Shown one piece after another: positions 15,911-28,097 of a stretch of DNA of 64,000 nucleotides. The position numbers and the translations under genes were made by a program. The notes beneath the pieces were generated by a model that did not search any database, was not told the origin of the DNA, and saw only the letters and a program-made list of their open reading frames with translations. The DNA lies in the NCBI RefSeq assembly GCF_023022965.1, contig NZ_CP095462.1:868001-932000 (forward strand), read 5' to 3'. Every line of letters starts with the position of its first letter. The stretch's first letter is position 1. Source of the DNA: Ectobacillus sp. JY-23. GTDB lineage: Bacteria; Bacillota; Bacilli; Bacillales; Bacillaceae_G.

Positions 15911-16003
15911 TTAAACAATGTTGGTTTAAGACATAAACAAGCAACGCACACAGCAGGACGTTTTAGTTATCATTTTACCACAAAATAGGCTGAGATGTAA
16001 TAC

Positions 16004-16840
16004 TTACTGCTTCTGCGCAATCGGATTATCTTCATAAGAAATCCAATCGCTCCAGCTGCCCGCATACAGCTTTATATTTTGAAATCCCGCTTCTTTTAAA
16101 GCCAAGATATTAGGGCAAGCTGTAACACCAGAGCCACAGTATACAATCACTTCCTCATCTTTATGAATATCGGCAAACCGAGCCTCTTGTTGAGAGACAG
16201 CATGGAACATTCCCTCAGCTGTAACTCCTTCTTTCCAGAAATAATTGCGAGCCATTGGAATATGTCCGGCTTTTTTGTCAATAGGTTCTTCTATTCCTTT
16301 ATATCGGTTAGGTTCGCGCGAGTCAATTAATACAAACGCACTTCCATCGTCAATTCTGTTTTTTATATCCTGCATCTGTACAAGCATATCATGCTGCGGA
16401 TAAGCAATAAAGTTCTTTCTTGTAAACACGGGCACTTGATGTGTTGTAGGAAGATTTAATTGCTTCCATTGCAGAAATCCTCCGTTTAGGACATATACCT
16501 TTTTATGTCCCAGATAAGTAAGCAACCACCACAGCCTAGAAGCCATCGTCCCATGTTGACTATCATATGCGACAACAGTCGTATCCTCATCGATACCGGC
16601 ATCAGAAAGCTTATCAATAAACAATTCTAAGTCCGGCAGGGGATGACGTCCACCGTAAGTGCCAACCGGTCCCGACAAATCGCGCTCTAGATGCATATAC
16701 AAAGCATTTACAATGTGTTCTTCTTGATATGCCTCTTCCCCGTCCCCAGCATTTGCAAGATTAAAACGACAATCTATAATGCGAACAGATTCATCCTGCA
16801 GATGCTTCTTTAGCCAGGTTGCTTCTACTGTATACTGCAT
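16004..16840 (-). CDS. Sulfurtransferase with two rhodanese domains
   Basis: 278 residues from the ATG at 16840 (AGGAG site). Tandem rhodanese domains; the second carries the active cysteine loop YCGSGVTACPN, the first is inactive but has the HIVNALYMHLERDLSGP motif. Typical thiosulfate or 3-mercaptopyruvate sulfurtransferase. CGSGVTA favours the broader sulfurtransferase group rather than a strict assignment. The start region lies six bases after the ypbS-like stop. Confidence 0.85.
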   Translation of the reverse strand: MQYTVEATWLKKHLQDESVRIIDCRFNLANAGDGEEAYQEEHIVNALYMHLERDLSGPVGTYGGRHPLPDLELFIDKLSDAGIDEDTTVVAYDSQHGTMASRLWWLLTYLGHKKVYVLNGGFLQWKQLNLPTTHQVPVFTRKNFIAYPQHDMLVQMQDIKNRIDDGSAFVLIDSREPNRYKGIEEPIDKKAGHIPMARNYFWKEGVTAEGMFHAVSQQEARFADIHKDEEVIVYCGSGVTACPNILALKEAGFQNIKLYAGSWSDWISYEDNPIAQKQ

Positions 16841-16845
16841 GCCAT

Positions 16846-17112
16846 TCACTCCTGACGATTCAGACGTTCTACATATTCCTTTACCATTTCAAGCGTTACA
16901 TATTTACGCTCAGGTACTACTCCATCTTTAGCAAACATATTAATTTCTTTTGTCACAGCATTGATTGCATCTACCGAAAATGGTTGATTATTTCTACACA
17001 ACATCACTGCTGTTTCAATCGCTGCTTCTCGGCGCGCTTCGAGCTGCAGAAACTCGCTAACTGCTGCCTGCTGTTTTTTTGAATGTGCTGTAATCGCCTT
17101 ATGTACTTCCAT
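16846..17112 (-). CDS. ypbS: DUF2533 family protein (YpbS-like)
   Basis: 88 residues from the ATG at 17112 (GAGGTG six bases before); a GTG lies three codons up. Highly helical (VHKAITAHSKKQQAAVSEF). The family is restricted to Bacillus and relatives; function unknown. Sits between a GNAT gene and the sulfurtransferase in one unit. Confidence 0.75.
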   Translation of the reverse strand: MEVHKAITAHSKKQQAAVSEFLQLEARREAAIETAVMLCRNNQPFSVDAINAVTKEINMFAKDGVVPERKYVTLEMVKEYVERLNRQE

Positions 17113-17124
17113 TTCCTTCACCTC

Positions 17125-17577
17125 TTATAAGTCTATAGCAAGACGAATCATATCGCGGCAATGTATCCCATTTTCCACAATTTCTTCATCATAGTGCCTA
17201 GTAAAATAATTATGCTCGATTCCTATCATACGAAAACCGCTTTTTTGATACAAGGCCAATTGACTGATGCTTGAATTTCCTGTTCCAATTTCAAGTTTGT
17301 ACATACCTTGTCTACGAGCCATTTGGATCGCATGCATTAGTAGTTGCTTGCCAATACCTTGTCCTTGGTGTTCATCGACAACTGCAATATTCATAATCTC
17401 CATGGTACGCGGACGTGTTTCTAAGAGTATATATGCACCGACCACCTGCTCAACTGACACAGCAATAAATAATGTTCCGCGTTCTAAATATGTCCTAATT
17501 TGTGCTTCGCTCGGATCAGCCAACAACAGCAAGTCCATGGGTACTTGTGCTGATTTTTTTATGATAATCTCTTTCAT
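17125..17577 (-). CDS. GNAT family N-acetyltransferase
   Basis: 150 residues from the ATG at 17577 after GGATGGGGAG; the upstream open frame (to 17715) overlaps a divergent gene and is not used. Acetyl-CoA loop HQGQGIGKQLL and the following helix are clear. Substrate unknown. First gene of the GNAT-ypbS-sulfurtransferase unit. Confidence 0.8.
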   Translation of the reverse strand: MKEIIIKKSAQVPMDLLLLADPSEAQIRTYLERGTLFIAVSVEQVVGAYILLETRPRTMEIMNIAVVDEHQGQGIGKQLLMHAIQMARRQGMYKLEIGTGNSSISQLALYQKSGFRMIGIEHNYFTRHYDEEIVENGIHCRDMIRLAIDL

Positions 17578-17643
17578 CTCCCCATCCTTTCCTGTTCTAA
17601 ACTTTTCAATCAGCCAATATGTAATACAAAGGGGGGATAAGCA

Positions 17644-17907
17644 ATGACCGAACATGACAACAAGAATAAATGCAATATTATCGCGATTGACGGTGGAAAA
17701 GGAAAAGAAAAGCATACAGAAAAATATGCAACTTTAATTATGGAAGGAAAAACGTATGAATTAACTTCCTTTATCTTATCCGGCGAAACCCCTGAAGGAA
17801 AGCGACTTGTGCTTTCGCATATGGTATCCACAGATGAATACGCCGGACTTGTTAAAACACTGGATATGGTATTGCAAAAACGCATTGAACGCTTATTTTT
17901 TTCCTAG
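17644..17907 (+). CDS. Hypothetical protein, 87 aa
   Basis: ATG with a GGGGGG site. Charged and soluble, a lysine-rich start (IDGGKGKEKHTEKYATLIMEG is the junction with the first beta strand). I do not recognise the family. Divergent from the GNAT gene and ends against dynA with a shared hairpin. Confidence 0.6.
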   Translation: MTEHDNKNKCNIIAIDGGKGKEKHTEKYATLIMEGKTYELTSFILSGETPEGKRLVLSHMVSTDEYAGLVKTLDMVLQKRIERLFFS

Positions 17908-17927
17908 CTCTGACCTTGGTCAGAGCT
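17906..17927. terminator. Hairpin between convergent genes
   Basis: AGCTCTGACC / GGTCAGAGCT, ten perfect pairs with a two-base loop, between the 87-aa gene and dynA. The T run is weak on the plus side. Confidence 0.6.
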
Positions 17928-17928
17928 A

Positions 17929-20900
17929 TTATATCATGTTTAGCTCTTTCTCTAACCCTTTTCGAATCTTTTCAATTTGCTCTTTTGTATGTTCGTATGA
18001 AATTACGTCCACATTGTCTGACAACGCATGAAGCAAACCCTCAAAGTAGGCTGCTATATCCGTTTCTAACTCCTCCTTGAGTTGCTGCCAAGCATTTTTC
18101 CATTCCTTCGTATAATGCTGCCTTAGCTGCTCTGCTTCTTCTTCTATATAGCGGGACGCCTCAGGTTCTAACACATTCTTCATTTCTTCTTGGAACAGTG
18201 CTTTCTCATTTTTCTCAAAAAAGCTTTTTGCATTTTTAAAGTATGTCATGGCCTTCTTAAAACGTATTGGTTCCATCTCTAGAAAAGGCTCGCCTTGCTC
18301 GGAAGGTTTATATGATCGACTGTGCTCGGAAAATCCTATACCTGGATGAATTGCTAAGCACTCTTCCACAATAGCTCGCTTGGAAAACATTAAACGTTTA
18401 TCCATCCAATTTTCAATACGAAGTGAAGTTGCACGAATTTCCTGCATAAAATCATGCCTTAAGAAGTCTAGCATTTCGATAATGCACTCGCGTAAGCGTT
18501 GTTTCGAATCGCTATCATTCCGTAAAACAGCAGGGTTAAAAATCTCAGAAAAGACATCATTATACCGGAAAAAAACACGTTGTTTCACATAATACAGTAA
18601 ATCTTGAATTTCTTGTGCCAAGGCTTGCTCCTCAGTTAACACACTGTACGCATGAATAACATGCTGAATGGTCTCTTGTTCTTTTTTATAACGACGACGC
18701 TTTTCTTCTTTTTTATCCATGCTCTCCTTCGCATCTGTCACAATCGTATGCAATAGGTTTTCTGCAGATCGTACAACGCCTGTAAGAGCTGTTAAAGACA
18801 CCATCATCAAATCACGTGTTACAAACGTATGGAAAGCTTCTTCAAAAGCATTCATGCCGGAATTCATTAGAATACCGTAGTTTCCTTTCTTACCTAGTTT
18901 TTCATCAAGTGCAAACAGACTGGAAATTGGGAACATGCGCGGATTGCGAATACCATATTGAAGAAGCTGTTCTTTAATATAGCTTTGGACTGTTTGTAGC
19001 TCTTGTTCATCCGCCGCAAGATCCGCAGCGTTAATAAGAAAGAACATTTTGTCCATAGCAAATGAATCTTTCACACGACCAAGTTGAATTAAAAATTCTC
19101 GATCTGCTTTTGAAAAGACATGATTGTAGTAAGTTACAAATAAAATCGCATCAGCATTTTTAATATATTGAAATGCTACATCGGTATGACGTGCATTGAC
19201 AGAATCTGCTCCTGGTGTATCAACTAATGTAATGCCGTTTTGAGTAAATGCACAATCATAATAGAGCTCCATATATTCTACAAAACAGGATTTTTCCTCT
19301 TCAGCCACATAGGAAGCGAATTGTGAAAGTTCACTCTTACATTTACAGCCAAGTTGCTGCTTAAATACCATGTAGCCAGATTGCACCGCCCGAAGAAAGC
19401 TTAGTGTTGTTTTTTGCCTTGGATTCGGTGACGATTGCGCCAATAACGCCGGAATTCCGGCAATAGCTTCTTCTAAAGTCGTTACTTTTTGTTCAAATAA
19501 CTTATAAATCTGCTGTAAATCCCCCAAAAGTGCATCGGCCGTCTTGAATTGTACGACTACAGTGCCGTGTGGATGCTCCTGTGTAACCGGCATAATTTTA
19601 TTAATTGCCGCTGTCGTTGGGTTGGGTGATACAGGTAACACCTTATTTCCAAGCAAAGCATTAGCAAAGGAAGATTTACCTGCACTGAATGCGCCGAATA
19701 ATGCAACTGTAAATTGCTTGGTCTCTGCTCTCTGTCTTTTTTCTACAGCTTCCTCATATAAATGTTTTAATGCAGGAATGCTCTTCATCCATTCTTCTGC
19801 TTGCTTAATATATTGAATAACCGTTGCGATATCGCCTGAAGGAGCATTCGAAACTGTTTCTATGACTTCTACCTCTTCTGTATTCTTTACCTTAATCAAC
19901 ATTTGCTCGGATGTAATATAAGATTCGCTTGGTAGCGATTCTACTGTGATTTCCGGCTGCTTTTCTCCTGCAAAAACTTCGTACAACTCTCGTATATGCT
20001 TATGCACCCTTTGCTCTTGCTCTTTTATCAGCATTTCCGAAGTTTTTTTATTTTCAGTCTGAATAATTTCATTTTGGATTGCTGCCAGATTCTTCTCGAT
20101 ATTTTGAGCAAGTAAAAGAAACTGTTCCTCCATTAGTTGCAAAGCCATTTGTTTAATCTGTCTTTTCACAGCTGTTGCGACATCATTTGTGTAATTTAAT
20201 ACGTAATCACCTGTTAACCCCGCACCACGCTTTACATTATCAATTAAAAGTGAGGTGCTGAATGTTGCTGAAATGCCATAGATTTGCTTTCCGATCTCTT
20301 CTGTGTATATCTTTTGCTCTTGTAAAAAAGTCAAGAGATATTGCCTTACATGAAAGTCAAGCTGCGTTTGTGCTGTCTCACGAAATTTTTCATAAAACAA
20401 CTGCAAACGCTTTTCTTTTTCCTTTTGTGTTTTAGTCTTAGAAAAAAACCATCCTACTTTAAAATTGGAAAGCTCGGTCTCTAGATAGCTTTCGGCTAAA
20501 CTTCGCACTTCAAACGGCAACAAGTATGCATTTTCCAGCAATTGGTCCAAACCCTTTAAAAAATTACTTTTTATCGTTTGCTTTTGAAGCAATAATTGCT
20601 CTTCTTTACGATACAAGTCCGTTAAAATCTGTTCAACCTCTTGTATATCCACATTATCAGCACCTACAGATGTTTCCTCATGTTTGTGTAGCAAGAAGGC
20701 TCTATGTTTCTCCAGCAGATATGCAACTTCTCTCTCGGTACTCGTTTCGATATACGTAGCTCGTTGTTCCATAAGACTGGCAATTAACGACTTTAACGCT
20801 TGAAATTCGTTATACTTATAATTGGTACTTCGAAGTGATGTATAGAATATACCATCCACATGAATATTCCAGTTCGAGAAGGACGCTGCCACACTTTCCT

Positions 20901-21540
20901 GGTACGATGAAAAGCTTAATTCATCCTCTTTATGCTTATCAATTTGATTTATAACAAGATATACACATTTGTTGCGCTCTTTTAGCTCTTTAACAAATTG
21001 CAGGTTAACTTCCGATTGTACATGATTATAATCCATCATATAAAAAATAATGTCCGCCAAATGAAGCGTTGACTCAGTAGCTAATCTATGCGCATCATCT
21101 GTAGAGTCAATACCAGGTGTATCAACTAACATTACACCTTCTGGAAGCGGCGCATCTTCTCTTACAATTTCAATTCCAATAACTTCATCTCCATTTTTGC
21201 AAAGTGCCTTCAGCTGCTCGTCTGTATAAATGCCGTCATAAGAATGGCGCTCTCCTGACAATAAAGTTGCGACTACTTGATTTTTACCACGGCGCACCTT
21301 GACTACATTTGCACTTGTAGGAATAGGACTTGTCGGTAATAAGTCTTCCCCGTACAGTGCGTTCATCATGGTTGATTTCCCAGCAGAAAAATGTCCGCAA
21401 AATGCGATCATAAATTCTCCTTTTTCATATTTGCGGATTACATCAGCTAGTCGCTCACTGCTCTCTGCATCTTCTTTTTGCTTCCACATACTGTATAGAT
21501 ACAGATAGGATTGCATTTTAGATTGTATAATTTTAACCAT
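17929..21540 (-). CDS. dynA: Double dynamin-like GTPase DynA (YpbR)
   Basis: 1203 residues, two fused dynamin units as in B. subtilis DynA (about 1193). First GTPase: P-loop GHFSAGKST (49-57), DTPGIDST, NQID. Second, near residue 617: GAFSAGKSS, DTPGADSV, NAAD. Long coiled-coil stalks follow each. DynA tethers and fuses membranes and protects against phage and membrane stress. ATG after a GGGGA-type site. It is monocistronic and its upstream region faces the Fur-peptide gene's terminator. Confidence 0.93.
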   Translation of the reverse strand: MVKIIQSKMQSYLYLYSMWKQKEDAESSERLADVIRKYEKGEFMIAFCGHFSAGKSTMMNALYGEDLLPTSPIPTSANVVKVRRGKNQVVATLLSGERHSYDGIYTDEQLKALCKNGDEVIGIEIVREDAPLPEGVMLVDTPGIDSTDDAHRLATESTLHLADIIFYMMDYNHVQSEVNLQFVKELKERNKCVYLVINQIDKHKEDELSFSSYQESVAASFSNWNIHVDGIFYTSLRSTNYKYNEFQALKSLIASLMEQRATYIETSTEREVAYLLEKHRAFLLHKHEETSVGADNVDIQEVEQILTDLYRKEEQLLLQKQTIKSNFLKGLDQLLENAYLLPFEVRSLAESYLETELSNFKVGWFFSKTKTQKEKEKRLQLFYEKFRETAQTQLDFHVRQYLLTFLQEQKIYTEEIGKQIYGISATFSTSLLIDNVKRGAGLTGDYVLNYTNDVATAVKRQIKQMALQLMEEQFLLLAQNIEKNLAAIQNEIIQTENKKTSEMLIKEQEQRVHKHIRELYEVFAGEKQPEITVESLPSESYITSEQMLIKVKNTEEVEVIETVSNAPSGDIATVIQYIKQAEEWMKSIPALKHLYEEAVEKRQRAETKQFTVALFGAFSAGKSSFANALLGNKVLPVSPNPTTAAINKIMPVTQEHPHGTVVVQFKTADALLGDLQQIYKLFEQKVTTLEEAIAGIPALLAQSSPNPRQKTTLSFLRAVQSGYMVFKQQLGCKCKSELSQFASYVAEEEKSCFVEYMELYYDCAFTQNGITLVDTPGADSVNARHTDVAFQYIKNADAILFVTYYNHVFSKADREFLIQLGRVKDSFAMDKMFFLINAADLAADEQELQTVQSYIKEQLLQYGIRNPRMFPISSLFALDEKLGKKGNYGILMNSGMNAFEEAFHTFVTRDLMMVSLTALTGVVRSAENLLHTIVTDAKESMDKKEEKRRRYKKEQETIQHVIHAYSVLTEEQALAQEIQDLLYYVKQRVFFRYNDVFSEIFNPAVLRNDSDSKQRLRECIIEMLDFLRHDFMQEIRATSLRIENWMDKRLMFSKRAIVEECLAIHPGIGFSEHSRSYKPSEQGEPFLEMEPIRFKKAMTYFKNAKSFFEKNEKALFQEEMKNVLEPEASRYIEEEAEQLRQHYTKEWKNAWQQLKEELETDIAAYFEGLLHALSDNVDVISYEHTKEQIEKIRKGLEKELNMI

Positions 21541-21606
21541 CCCCTATGGTCCCCTTTATCTCAAGATGTTCTTTGTTCATTTTACTAAATTTTCATTGTA
21601 TTAACA

Positions 21607-21647
21607 AAACAAAAAACTCCCTTTCACTTGGAAAAAGGGAGTTTTAT
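21607..21647 (-). terminator. Intrinsic terminator of the Fur-controlled peptide gene
   Basis: AAAACTCCC / GGGAGTTTT stem then TTTGTTTTG on the minus strand, eight bases after the peptide stop. Confidence 0.85.
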
Positions 21648-21653
21648 AAAAAT

Positions 21654-21743
21654 TTATTTTGCCGCTCCGGCGACATGTTGTAATACGTATTTGGTAATAA
21701 TGGTATAGATAACGATGGTGCCTCCAATAAAGCCTGTCAGCAT
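21654..21743 (-). CDS. 29-residue membrane peptide under Fur-box control
   Basis: ATG at 21743, TAA at 21654. The product starts MLTGFIGGTIVIYTIITKY and ends VAGAAK: one hydrophobic segment, net basic. A stop nine codons up excludes a longer form; AAGGGA lies 11 bases before the ATG. The unit has its own promoter, two Fur boxes and a terminator, so it is a monocistronic iron-controlled transcript of about 170 bases. Size, charge and control recall the small basic B. subtilis FbpA/B/C proteins, FbpC in particular. I cannot confirm homology. It could also act as an RNA. Confidence 0.65.
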   Translation of the reverse strand: MLTGFIGGTIVIYTIITKYVLQHVAGAAK

Positions 21744-21761
21744 AGTTTTCGCCGTCCCTTC

Positions 21762-21776
21762 TGATAACGATTATCA
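21762..21776. promoter_or_regulatory. Fur box, downstream copy
   Basis: TGATAACGATTATCA matches the 7-1-7 Fur consensus at all but one position. It lies just after the predicted transcription start of the 29-aa peptide gene, where bound Fur would block elongation or initiation. Confidence 0.8.
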
Positions 21777-21787
21777 ATATTAAACCA

Positions 21788-21816
21788 ATTGTATCATAAT
21801 AGAGAATCATTATCAA
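21788..21816 (-). promoter_or_regulatory. SigA promoter of the 29-aa peptide gene
   Basis: TTGATA, 17-base spacer, TACAAT on the minus strand. The -35 box is overlapped by the upstream Fur box. Directly upstream is the stop of ypbQ. Confidence 0.75.
21801..21815. promoter_or_regulatory. Fur box, upstream copy
   Basis: AGAGAATCATTATCA, 13 of 15 matches to TGATAATNATTATCA, over the -35 region. Confidence 0.65.
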
Positions 21817-21821
21817 CAGCA

Positions 21822-22367
21822 TTAAGGCGTAAAACGCGAAATTTCGTTAAATTCATTTTGATACGTTGTACTTTCTACTAGAGCTTTTTCTTCTTCCTTA
21901 ATACGCACTCGCAACATCGCGATATTTAAAGCTGTAAATAAAAAGGTGGTGATATACGCTTGAAACAACAATGGGATAACTAAAATTTCAACGATGACAA
22001 CTAAGTAATTCGGATGCCGAATGAAGCGGTAAGGACCCTTCTTTACTACTGTAGCTCCCGGTAGCACGATAATTTTCGTATTCCAATAGACCCCAAGAGA
22101 CGAGATGGCCCATATACGTAAGATTTGTGTGATGATGAATATACATAAAAGCATAGGCCATAATCGAGAAGGGGATTTATGAAGCCATATTACCTCTGTC
22201 ACTGTACATAATAAAAATGATACATGCATAAGCACCATATACGTATAGTGCGCTTGTCCAAATTCAAGCGCACCGCGTTCTTTCATATGGCGTTCATTCT
22301 TCTTTGCAATCACAAGTTCCCCTACGCGCTGTAACACAATAAATATGAAAAAGACAACAAAGCTCAT
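21822..22367 (-). CDS. ypbQ: Isoprenylcysteine methyltransferase-like YpbQ (BpsB)
   Basis: 181 residues from the ATG at 22367 (GGGAGGA site). Four to five membrane segments and the ICMT signature KKGPYRFIRHPNYLVVI. In B. subtilis the homologue BpsB methylates alkylpyrones made by BpsA. It overlaps bcsA by four bases, so the pair is one unit. Confidence 0.85.
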   Translation of the reverse strand: MSFVVFFIFIVLQRVGELVIAKKNERHMKERGALEFGQAHYTYMVLMHVSFLLCTVTEVIWLHKSPSRLWPMLLCIFIITQILRIWAISSLGVYWNTKIIVLPGATVVKKGPYRFIRHPNYLVVIVEILVIPLLFQAYITTFLFTALNIAMLRVRIKEEEKALVESTTYQNEFNEISRFTP

Positions 22368-23452
22368 ACTTCCTCCCACTCCACCAAAATAAGTTCCGAG
22401 CTAAAGCCCGGTCCAAGAGCTGCGATGAGCCCGGTTTCACCAGGTGTTTGTACCATTTGCATATACTTAGAAAGAACGTATAAAACCGTGGCTGAAGACA
22501 TATTTCCATATTGTCGCAGGATATCAAGTGATATTTGTGTTTTTTCCTCATGCATATCAAGTGCTTCCTCATATGCCTGCAATACCTTTTTCCCACCCGG
22601 ATGGGCAACAAAATGTGCAATATCTTGTACAGTCATATTATATCTCGCAAGAAAACCTTCCACATTTGGACGTAGCCAATTTTTGATAATAGTTGGAATG
22701 TCTTTTGAAAAGATAACGTATAAACCATTATTTCGTATATCCCACCCCATAACATCCTCAGCATCCTTCATAAGTGTCGATTGTGAATCGCGATAAACTG
22801 GGAGCACTGGTAAAGAAGAGTCATATGCTGCATTGTTTCCTGTAATGAGTACACAAGCCGCGCCATCTGCGAATAAAGATGTGCCGATAAGGTTGCTTTT
22901 AGATATATCGTTGCGCTGAAAGGTCAGGCTGCAAAGTTCAATGGCCAATACCAGTACTTTTGCTTTTGGGAACGCTTTGCAATATTCAAATGCACGTGAA
23001 AGGCCCACAGCACCACCTGCACAGCCAAGCCCCCAAATTGGAATTCGTTTGGTATGCGGGTGAAAGGGAAGCACATTCATAATTTTAGCATCAATAGTTG
23101 GTGTAGCTATACCTGTTGAAGAAATAAAAAAAATGGCTTCAATTTCCTCAGGCGCACCAGCAGTTTTTAAAAATGTTTGATTTTGTAAGCATTCCTGGAT
23201 TGCAGTTACACCTAATGATACCGAATTTTCGATGTAGGCATTGTTGCGTTCTTCAAATGTATGATCGCGCTCAAACCAAGAAAGATCTTTAACAAAGTGT
23301 CGCTTTTCTACCTGACCATTCTCAAACACGCGTAACAGACGGTTGATATCCTTGAAGGTGTCACCAAACAACTCTTTGGCAAATCGCACGACAGTATCTT
23401 GTGAAACAACATGCGGCGGCGGGGCGATACCGACAGATACAATTTTAGGCAT
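22364..23452 (-). CDS. bcsA: Type III polyketide synthase BcsA (BpsA)
   Basis: 362 residues, chalcone/stilbene synthase family. The catalytic triad is visible: Cys in GLGCAGGAVGLSR, His in VAHPGGKKVL, Asn in YGNMSSATVL. The B. subtilis homologue extends long acyl-CoAs with malonyl-CoA to alkylpyrones. The following methyltransferase gene caps the product. Function here is inferred from that pair. Confidence 0.9.
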   Translation of the reverse strand: MPKIVSVGIAPPPHVVSQDTVVRFAKELFGDTFKDINRLLRVFENGQVEKRHFVKDLSWFERDHTFEERNNAYIENSVSLGVTAIQECLQNQTFLKTAGAPEEIEAIFFISSTGIATPTIDAKIMNVLPFHPHTKRIPIWGLGCAGGAVGLSRAFEYCKAFPKAKVLVLAIELCSLTFQRNDISKSNLIGTSLFADGAACVLITGNNAAYDSSLPVLPVYRDSQSTLMKDAEDVMGWDIRNNGLYVIFSKDIPTIIKNWLRPNVEGFLARYNMTVQDIAHFVAHPGGKKVLQAYEEALDMHEEKTQISLDILRQYGNMSSATVLYVLSKYMQMVQTPGETGLIAALGPGFSSELILVEWEEV

Positions 23453-23679
23453 TTATTTCACTTCCAATTCTCTCCATTTCCCTTAATTTACCTTATTATA
23501 AGCAAAGTATGCACGAAACAAATAAAAGCTCCGCATCGGGAGCTTTCTCGGGATTTATTGCCTGTTTTGAAGAGTATTGCTGTGCCCTTTTATTATATCG
23601 CAGGAGAAGCACGTTAAAAGTAAAAAAATCTGGAAATTACTTTCTCATATCCTATAATAATGATGAAGGGAGAGATAGA

Positions 23680-24810
23680 ATGACTTTACATACGCGCATT
23701 CAGGCAATAGACATTATACGGGGATTTGCTGTTTTCGGTATCTTTTTTGTCAATTGGCCGTCTTTAGTAGGAATAGAAGTTCCTGGTCAAGAGCGAGCTT
23801 ATATGGGCATTGACGCATGGGTTCGCTGCTTGTACGACTTAGTAATTCAAACGAAATTCTACACCATGTTTTCTTTTTTGTTCGGTCTTGGTTTTTATAT
23901 TTTTATGAAACGAGCTGAAGAAAAAACACATAAACCAAAGCTACTATTTTTACGACGCTTATTTTTCTTATTTGTTATTGGTACACTACACTTTATTTTT
24001 CTGTGGAGCGGCGATATTCTCCATTCCTACGCAATTGCAGGTTGCTTTCTTTTATTCTTTTACAATCGCAAACCAAACACAATTTTAGTCTGGTCTGTTA
24101 GTTTACTTTCTTTATTCATGCTGTTTGTATTTTTTGCTTATAGCTTAACACCGCATAATGGCAGCCTAGCGAGCACATCTTCTTATGCTACACCATTAAC
24201 AGAGTGGATTAAGCAAGTAAATGAACGTTCTATTGCCTTTGTGAGCGAACAAATTGTAGTTAACATTGTTTACATTCCAGAAACATTAGGCCTCTTTCTA
24301 CTGGGATTATATGCAGGTAAAAAGAATGTTTTTGGTCGCGCCCAAGAACTTGATAGCAAACTAAAACAGTTGCAAATTATTTCATTCTTATTGACGATTC
24401 CAAGTTGGTATAAAATTATTTCTTACTTTACAGTAAATGAAATTTACAATTCGGGTGCCGTATTCCCTTATATAGTAGCAAGCGGGAAAACATTGTTCAT
24501 TTTTTATGTAGTAACACTTCTGCGTTCACATCAAACTTGGCAACACCTGCTTACACCTCTTCAATATGTGGGCCGAATGGCGCTAACGAACTACTTGTTA
24601 CAAAATATTACAACACTTACACTGTTTAGCTTATTCCTAACGAACAGCAACAACCTGCCACTTTACACAGGCATCCCATTTTGTATTGGGTTTTATATGC
24701 TGCAGGCATGGGCGAGCAAGCTTTGGCTCAACCGCTTTTCACAAGGGCCTATGGAATACATATGGCGCCTAGGAACATATGGTTTTCAAAAGCAAAAATC
24801 ACCGGATTAA
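23680..24810 (+). CDS. DUF418 family membrane protein (YeiB-like)
   Basis: 376 residues from the ATG at 23680 with an AGGGAGAG site; the 57 codons upstream in frame look non-coding. Begins with the family block RIQAIDIIRGFAVFGIFFVN and ends with GPMEYIWRLGTYG. About ten membrane helices. DUF418 proteins resemble membrane acyltransferases; role unknown. Divergent from bcsA with 227 bases between, and closed by a strong terminator. Confidence 0.85.
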   Translation: MTLHTRIQAIDIIRGFAVFGIFFVNWPSLVGIEVPGQERAYMGIDAWVRCLYDLVIQTKFYTMFSFLFGLGFYIFMKRAEEKTHKPKLLFLRRLFFLFVIGTLHFIFLWSGDILHSYAIAGCFLLFFYNRKPNTILVWSVSLLSLFMLFVFFAYSLTPHNGSLASTSSYATPLTEWIKQVNERSIAFVSEQIVVNIVYIPETLGLFLLGLYAGKKNVFGRAQELDSKLKQLQIISFLLTIPSWYKIISYFTVNEIYNSGAVFPYIVASGKTLFIFYVVTLLRSHQTWQHLLTPLQYVGRMALTNYLLQNITTLTLFSLFLTNSNNLPLYTGIPFCIGFYMLQAWASKLWLNRFSQGPMEYIWRLGTYGFQKQKSPD

Positions 24811-24824
24811 CCGGTGATTTTTAA
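24795..24824 (+). terminator. Intrinsic terminator of the DUF418 gene
   Basis: AAAATCACCGG ATTAA CCGGTGATTTTTAAT; the TAA stop is in the loop. Confidence 0.88.
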
Positions 24825-24834
24825 TATAGAGGTC

Positions 24835-24905
24835 TGTTTGCCGCAGGAGGTCAATGGACCTTCTCCCTCTACGCTAATCAATAAGTGCCCATGATTTAGC
24901 TGTAA
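24835..24905 (+). repeat. Remnant of Bacillus-type dispersed repeat
   Basis: Shares TAAGTGCCCATGATTTAGC and flanks, in the same order, with the end of the element at 44195-44240 (TAACAAGTGGCCATGATCAGC), and a CCGCAG core before it. Much shorter than the 44-kb copy. Confidence 0.4.
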
Positions 24906-24911
24906 CACAGG

Positions 24912-25664
24912 CTATTGTAAAAGTAATATCAATTGCAAAACGAGCTGTAAATCCATAATTCCGTGTGCAATAACAATAGGGAGAAGACGTTTCGTTTTTG
25001 TAAATATCACACCAAGTACAATTGCCAAGGGAACAAACGCTAGGAAGCGCCATATCATATAAGGCACATCAAATACGAGGGGCAATGTAATATGTTGCAA
25101 TGCCAATCCTAAGCCAGCCAGCCATACAGCGAGCCAGATGTTGCGAGTTGCTGCATATATTCTCGGTAAAGCATAACCAATATATAAAGGAGTTTCAGCA
25201 AGGGCATTTGATAAAGGAAACAAAATTACCGCTACACCAACTACCCAAACAGGAAGTTCTTGAAACATAATAGGCGGGGGAATTAGTGATCCTAATAGTA
25301 AATAAGAAAAAATATATAATGAAGCACCACCTATTATAAAGCCGACAAGCACGAGCCACAGTACTTCAAACACATTCTTTTTTATTGATCTTGGTTGCGT
25401 ACAAAATAAACTTTGATATGTTAGTCCTTCGTTTTTCATAAATAATCGCAACACAAAAAATGTAACGACGTTGGCAAAAATAGCTTGAAACGGCCACCAC
25501 CTTTCCGCTGCTTGCAAAGGACTCGTATGTCCCTCAAAAAAAAAGTATAGGACGAATATGCAGCCAAAAAGAGCGAATAAAATGGTACGCATAAATAATG
25601 ATATAATAACCTTTGTATGAATCCGATTTCGCATCCCATGATGGATTCTGGACTCTCCTTTCAT
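24912..25664 (-). CDS. CPBP-family membrane protein with degenerate motif 1
   Basis: 250 residues from the ATG at 25664 (GGGGGA, six-base spacer); a TTG lies just before. Eight or so membrane helices. CPBP (Abi/CAAX-like) motifs are recognisable but altered: motif 1 reads AETPLYIGY, lacking the second Glu and the Arg; motif 2 has ALQH; motif 3 is HGIMD. Probably not an active Rce1-type protease. Expressed from the operator-bearing promoter at 25879-25907 through a 215-base leader. Confidence 0.65.
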   Translation of the reverse strand: MKGESRIHHGMRNRIHTKVIISLFMRTILFALFGCIFVLYFFFEGHTSPLQAAERWWPFQAIFANVVTFFVLRLFMKNEGLTYQSLFCTQPRSIKKNVFEVLWLVLVGFIIGGASLYIFSYLLLGSLIPPPIMFQELPVWVVGVAVILFPLSNALAETPLYIGYALPRIYAATRNIWLAVWLAGLGLALQHITLPLVFDVPYMIWRFLAFVPLAIVLGVIFTKTKRLLPIVIAHGIMDLQLVLQLILLLQ

Positions 25665-25962
25665 CAAACATCCCCCTTTTCACTGTAAAGATGTGTTCTT
25701 CAGTCGTTTTCTTTACTTTACCTTCCCTATACTTTCGAATCATCAGTCACCTTTTATAACAGCACAGTCGTATCTAGTAAATTTGAAAGAATAATTTTGC
25801 TTTTGCTGATGGTCTTACGGGACATGAGCTGTTCATAGGCTCTAAATGATCTGCTATATCATGTGTTTTTACACTTACATATTAACTAACGTACGTTAAT
25901 GTGTCAATTGTTTTATAATTATATATAACAAGATGAGTAATACTATCTGATATCACATAAAA
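25665..25962. other. Long leader and upstream region of the CPBP gene
   Basis: About 300 bases. A good promoter with a palindrome is at 25879-25907. A 69-codon open frame (25743-25534) with a plausible AAAGGTGA site overlaps the CPBP start out of frame; it could be a leader peptide or non-coding. No regulator gene is present. Confidence 0.45.
25879..25907 (-). promoter_or_regulatory. Consensus promoter with TetR-type operator in the spacer
   Basis: TTGACA, 17 bases, TAATAT on the minus strand. The spacer contains the perfect 12-base palindrome TAACGTACGTTA (25887-25898). A repressor there would block RNA polymerase. It reads toward the CPBP gene. Confidence 0.7.
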
Positions 25963-26008
25963 AAGTTGCATCTCAGTCAGGAATTTGCCCTGACTGAGAT
26001 GCAACTTA
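25963..26008 (-). terminator. Intrinsic terminator of xpt-pbuX
   Basis: Perfect 19-bp stem (25963-25981 with 25989-26007), seven-base loop, T-rich minus-strand exit, four bases after the pbuX stop. Confidence 0.95.
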
Positions 26009-26011
26009 TAC

Positions 26012-28097
<2,086 letters not shown>

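Follow-up and report, generated by a model that had tools for sequence, protein, structure and literature searches.

The founding paper on FbpC is said to be that of Gaballa et al. 2008. Fur control of fbpC has been reported in Bacillus subtilis, and the literature describes FbpA and FbpB (PF13040) of this bacterium likewise as small, Fur-controlled, iron-sparing helpers. In two reviews, the FbpA, FbpB and FbpC proteins are postulated to be chaperones of FsrA, with a role that is still to be shown (PMC8464778, PMC7430163); the first of these terms B. subtilis FbpC a basic protein of 29 residues and a postulated RNA chaperone, and states that RNA binding is unconfirmed for every Fbp (PMC8464778). 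The accessible portions of the open-access literature contained neither a description of FbpC as a membrane protein nor any tracing of it beyond B. subtilis. The gene considered here, from a 64 kb window of an Ectobacillus genome (by which we mean the whole stretch of DNA that was analysed), is a divergent and previously unrecognised member of the known FbpC family. The reach of that family, its regular two-box promoter and a membrane reading that contradicts the usual label are, to our knowledge, new.

The fbpC-like gene lies on the minus strand, as do its flanking genes: ypbQ upstream (21822..22379; ICMT family, PF04140) and the dynamin gene dynA/ypbR downstream (17929..21540; 825 bits with NF052648, below that model's cut-off of 1600). 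Only 6 bp separate the ypbQ stop from a compact block of Fur boxes and promoter, in which a sigma-A-type promoter, TTGATA-N17-TACAAT, can be read over 21816-21788. Its -35 element TTGATA (21811..21816) is overlapped by the distal Fur box TGATAATGATTCTCT (21801..21815; 12/14 fixed positions), its -10 element TACAAT (21788..21793) follows a spacer of 17 and is preceded by TG, and the proximal Fur box TGATAATCGTTATCA (21762..21776; 13/14) is situated just 3' of the inferred transcription start. A Shine-Dalgarno-like AAGGGA (21755..21760), 11 nt 5' of the ATG, introduces the ORF MLTGFIGGTIVIYTIITKYVLQHVAGAAK (21654..21743; 29 codons and stop), which is predicted to encode a single transmembrane peptide; past it stands an intrinsic terminator of 13 pairs, T-rich thereafter (21613..21645). 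Sequences like AAGGNNGGTG were seen by eye at a comparable position in many relatives. An earlier note on this DNA had recognised the two boxes around the promoter (its scores of 14/15 and 13/15 are our 13/14 for the proximal and 12/14 for the distal one) as well as the 29-codon frame and its strong terminator, all of which we recover. It also called the unit monocistronic; this is right in that the gene has a promoter and a terminator of its own, but the stretch from the ypbQ stop (21822) to the ORF showed no terminator-like site, so that transcription of bcsA-ypbQ may read through to the terminator behind the ORF and part of the fbpC-like transcripts may originate at the bcsA-ypbQ promoter. 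The listing of ypbQ among Fur-regulated genes in PMC12943173 would be compatible either with such read-through or with a mis-assigned fbpC site.

With respect to chance, the window holds three Fur-like sites with at most two mismatches where 0.80 would be expected (3 of 100 shuffles reach three), and two of the three are the pair at the fbpC-like gene, their centres 39 bp apart. The 3.9 Mb genome has 10 places that depart from a Fur box by no more than one mismatch (3 in the control), and the proximal box is one of them; several of the others precede or lie near ORFs that, named by inspection, we read as genes for the transport of iron-siderophores, for a group of iron permeases and for a ferredoxin. 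All 19 loci of the bacterium's own family, that of Ectobacillus included, have an upstream Fur box matching at 13 or 14 of 14 positions. When the set is widened to 95 distinct upstream regions, a box scoring 12/14 or better occurs within 130 nt in 92 (0.5% in a Markov control), and 80 carry a pair of boxes that each score 11/14 or better (control 0.2%). The commonest spacing of the two boxes, 39 or 40 bp, accounts for 48 of the 80 two-box loci, and a -35/-10 pair falls between or overlaps the boxes at 77 of them, as against 470/1600 when the spacer is shuffled; a terminator-like hairpin within 120 nt past the stop is present in 82/99 distinct regions versus 14/99 for the Markov control. The Ectobacillus locus has, at the level of sequence, the Fur-box promoter expected of FbpC, with boxes nearer to the consensus (13 and 12 of 14) than those of B. 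spizizenii (12 and 11; locus L100), and the sequence thus supports the predicted placement of the gene under Fur and iron control.

The identity of the peptide is less simple to establish from its sequence. The NCBIfam model for FbpC, NF033217, which has a cut-off of 60 bits, gives 76 bits to the B. spizizenii peptide from the ypbQ-dynA slot and 74 to that of the B. nakamurai/velezensis type, and the slot ORF of B. spizizenii and B. inaquosorum has 29 codons when counted from the ATG where the model begins. The Ectobacillus peptide does not match this model at E<=1 or E<=10, and so stays short of the 60-bit membership score. It is 24% identical to the B. spizizenii peptide, and a profile made from the subtilis type only does not place it among the best 8 of the 2032 small ORFs in the window. 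The gap is bridged by graded intermediates: of 10 peptides from other loci NF033217 matches 6, its score sinking from 63 bits for the best to 10 for the weakest, and at E<=10 it recognises 11 members of the family out of 43. The earlier note had proposed an alignment with FbpC, and when the own-family profile is set against the subtilis type, hhalign returns a probability of 94 and a score of 29.4 over 28 ungapped columns, the best of 200 column shuffles reaching 16.8; this is homology to FbpC at the profile level. Common to both are the 29 residues, the Fur-box promoter, the slot between ypbQ and dynA (as it is found in subtilis-group genomes), the ungapped 28 columns with Y13, V20 and L21, and a net basic charge, whereas the C-terminus of the Ectobacillus peptide differs. 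Sequence alone would not prove orthology, but because position, two-box promoter layout, intermediates of falling score and the profile-profile score combine, we hold it to be very probable that the gene is a divergent fbpC ortholog. A resemblance to the FbpA/B/C helpers, suggested previously, thus resolves through slot, promoter and shared peptide motif into kinship with FbpC in particular. A profile of the family itself detects the gene where NF033217 fails.

FbpB belongs to a separate family: PF13040 is matched by no member of the FbpC-like alignment, and the two FbpB-family matches in the Ectobacillus genome are located elsewhere. A search of the PDB gave no match up to E 10, and those of PHROGs and Pfam gave weak matches only. 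Single members of the family did resemble PetL of the cytochrome b6f complex weakly, with E 0.0034 against Pfam and 0.027 against NCBIfam; this is probably a generic helix similarity.

Over residues 1-16 of the peptide, K, R, D and E are absent from all of the 75 unique cores (24 residues each, equivalent to about 24 effective sequences; L196 was omitted for an alignment offset), while the net charge past residue 16 averages +2.8 and is zero or less in only 3 of the 75. The peptide that had been called hydrophobic and basic is accordingly both, an uncharged helix being followed by a basic C-terminus. Weighted conservation reaches 100% at Y13, 99% at V20, 94% at T9, 87% at L21 and 81% at K18, values in which the strength of the conserved motif is inflated, the cores having been gathered with a profile that favours it. 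Conservation is helix-periodic at 100 degrees (permutation P 0.010), and F5, T9, Y13, L16, V20 and V24 point towards one helix face. This pattern fits a predicted single transmembrane helix, N-out and C-in, with a contact face. For a 56-residue long-tailed homolog, AlphaFold2 proposes one helix over residues 2-25 and an unstructured tail, with a mean pLDDT of 67 (approximately 90 over residues 1-10 and 85 over 11-20) and a pTM of 0.31. The alignment, which takes in the B. subtilis group as well as a second order, thus suggests which part of FbpC has been preserved, namely a putative membrane helix. Small regulators or subunits of membrane complexes with one helix of some 25-40 residues include KdpF, CydX, AcrZ and MgtS; the FbpC-like peptide is like them in having one short helix, with no sequence relation shown.

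The homolog modelled above belongs to a long-tailed branch of 47-56 residues, whose extra length consists of a basic, variable linker and, in many members, an [LF]IPxxxTR-like C-terminus; the charge of the tail past residue 24 averages +3.5 (21 unique sequences). Variants of 52-56 aa were noted at L105, L118, L120, L121, L125, L127, L132, L142, L149, L153 and L160, and also at L162, L164, L179, L182 and L197, with LIPTETTR, FIPASQTR and LIPAYDR as recurring ends.

Our best explanation overall, to which we assign a probability of about 0.6, is that the gene is an fbpC ortholog, silenced by Fur, and that its product is an iron-starvation membrane peptide that binds a partner helix. With iron plentiful, Fur would occupy the two boxes that flank or overlap the promoter and keep the gene silent. 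Once iron is exhausted, derepression would follow and the 29-residue peptide, whose reading frame is under selection, would be translated. According to the prediction, the peptide spans the membrane once as a helix and leaves its basic C-terminus on the cytosolic side. The helix face formed by F5, T9, Y13, L16, V20 and V24 would then bind a transmembrane helix of the partner, perhaps changing the activity or stability of that partner within the iron-sparing response. Candidate partners are iron-using respiratory complexes (succinate dehydrogenase, cytochrome oxidase), an iron transporter or the membrane-anchored RNase Y; by way of the latter, the peptide could still aid FsrA-type regulation. 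A broader proposition has in our judgement an even chance of being correct: that FbpC has been misclassified as a soluble RNA chaperone and in fact founds a family of membrane peptides made in iron starvation, which extends over two orders of Bacilli and uses a T-x3-Y-x6-V face to bind a conserved partner in the membrane, and that the cytosolic [LF]IPxxxTR-like tail of the long branch could be a second, soluble contact. The membrane-helix reading makes the function of FbpC a matter of simple tests.

The classical alternative sees in FbpC a small, basic chaperone of RNA by which an FsrA-type sRNA is helped to act on its mRNA targets; the Ectobacillus peptide would do likewise with a local FsrA-like RNA. 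This view has the published postulate on its side, together with a candidate RNA of the Ectobacillus genome that has a Fur box and a hairpin with a C6 loop (L256, z -4.89), the Fur boxes followed by C-rich sequence in relatives of genus g2, and the basic tail of the long-tailed branch, which could contact RNA. Yet conservation falls mostly on residues that are hydrophobic and carry no charge, the short form would put an estimated 10 or so residues into the cytosol, RNA binding is by the review's own account unconfirmed for any Fbp, and the near-universal FbpB family, found in 195 of the 199 genomes of the order, is the better candidate for a chaperone. An uncharged, conserved helix with a T9-Y13-V20 face argues for a peptide that lies in the membrane and binds a partner there, and against the postulated chaperone. 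A soluble chaperone seems unlikely to us, composition, conservation and the predicted helix favouring a transmembrane peptide; a better fit would be a peptide that sits in the membrane and regulates a transporter, RNase Y or a complex that uses iron. A link of the peptide to FsrA-type regulation nevertheless stays conceivable.

As to FsrA itself, the Rfam model RF02273 finds none in the Ectobacillus genome and is above its cut-off in only 3 of the 199 genomes of the order. That FsrA is absent outside these three was considered and then discarded in view of Fur-boxed C-rich sequences at L246, at L256 and in genus g2; since these are diverged candidates, absence must not be inferred from Rfam. 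Weak RF02273 matches at L176-L178 have no Fur box in the preceding 130 nt and were treated as chance. A search with a C-rich pattern gave 0/60, a result that is uninformative because the pattern also misses the three true FsrA loci (0/3). Near ykuJ, the gene that FsrA adjoins, a single one of the 26 loci from outside genus g46 shows a Fur box; this is L246, where a perfect box upstream of ykuJ is followed by C-rich sequence and a hairpin (approximately 1260-1450) that the Rfam model does not report. The candidate in the Ectobacillus genome itself (L256:1488-1597, contig position ~997438, outside the 64 kb window) has a Fur box of 13/14 overlapping TTGACG-17-TATCAT and then about 80 nt with the C6-loop hairpin, a possible FsrA-like sRNA missed by RF02273. 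It matches a sister genome at 89% over 112 bases, and a 39-codon GTG frame at the same place is not retained there (9 codons in L261); alternatively, the hairpin could simply end the opposing gene. Eight loci of genus g2, which is of the same family (L262-L265, L268, L269, L272 and L273), carry at around position 1500 a Fur box and then TTTCCCCATTCCC ... AAGCTTGACTAGTCCCCAAGCTTTTTTT, likely a diverged FsrA-type sRNA.

The position of the gene, whose conservation between dynA and ypbQ had been suggested as a test, is well kept. The ypbQ-fbpC-dynA slot is occupied in Ectobacillus, in B. spizizenii (L100) and in others: ypbQ and dynA are both on the 3-kb locus in 17 of 19 own-family cases, the exceptions being L004 (neither) and L020 (dynA only). 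In the 80 named loci, kept from 102 that were found with the YpbQ of a subtilis-group genome as query, a profile-matching ORF lies downstream of ypbQ in 57; dynA is further downstream in 54 of these, and the other three are ended by contig ends. The remaining 23 have no profile match, 7 of them with dynA downstream and 16 without. Among the latter are two Pontibacillus loci, L159 (3577 onward) and L163 (2477 onward), with a Fur box of 13/14 and a 57-codon ORF that starts MVLLIMLTVVVYS or MVLFIILTVCVYS; these ORFs are a further diverged branch missed by the profile. In the order as a whole, profile A2 matches 82 of 199 genomes at E<=0.05 and 78 at E<=1e-3 (four with a best E of 0.008-0.045 are excluded from the 78), and 26 of the 28 additional loci from this search have both ypbQ and dynA. 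A class-wide sample gave 20 matches in 299, five of them in one family outside the order; each of these five shows a 12-13/14 Fur box between -35 and -40 and keeps dynA on its 3-kb locus, ypbQ not being found there.

Such constancy raises the question of whether the peptide serves its neighbour, recruiting or tuning the membrane dynamin DynA in iron-starved cells. The association in the named loci (54/57, with contig ends for the rest), the rarity of similar ORFs where both dynA and a profile match are lacking (only the two of Pontibacillus among 16) and the retention of dynA but not ypbQ outside the order would all agree with it. Seven named loci, however, have dynA downstream of ypbQ and no peptide was found in them; L215, L216 and L219 have the peptide and ypbQ with no dynA near, and L004 has neither neighbour. 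Moreover, dynA is 1-2 kb off in several loci, and the peptide's own promoter and terminator divide the genes. A service to DynA therefore seems to us improbable, more so than a chaperone role.

There is still less room for the idea that the active molecule is the transcript, a Fur-controlled sRNA, and that the peptide is not the agent. The RNA is short (about 170 nt from the inferred start), it ends in a strong terminator and its layout resembles that of FsrA, and action by the RNA itself had been raised in the earlier note. With its terminator included, the transcript folds modestly better than its shuffles (z -1.97, 7/200 as good), and Rfam gave sub-threshold matches over 16000-28000, none above the gathering score. 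What is preserved is instead the protein: with ORF starts picked by profile, pooled pN/pS is 0.17 (33 disjoint close pairs), and codon positions 1, 2 and 3 have mean entropies of 1.06, 0.66 and 1.57 bits (92 unique gapless cores), figures that indicate strong selection on the amino-acid sequence. With third positions varying freely and so modest a fold, the suggestion of an acting RNA is left unsupported and an sRNA as the agent is very improbable; the ORF, as judged from its pattern of substitution, is protein-coding. Loss of the frame in relatives that keep its flanks had been named beforehand as what would speak against the gene, and the frame is retained in 18/18 sampled same-family relatives (search of 40 genomes including that of Ectobacillus; E 4.4e-13 to 0.4), matches inside long frames (363-383 aa in L021-L028, some 200-400 aa in L030 and others) and the one at L029 (E 0.94) not being counted as family. 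A chance ORF next to a genuine Fur site, to which its very short frame and long Shine-Dalgarno spacing of 11 nt might have pointed, can be dismissed, given this retention in all 18 relatives and the purifying selection that we regard as refuting it.
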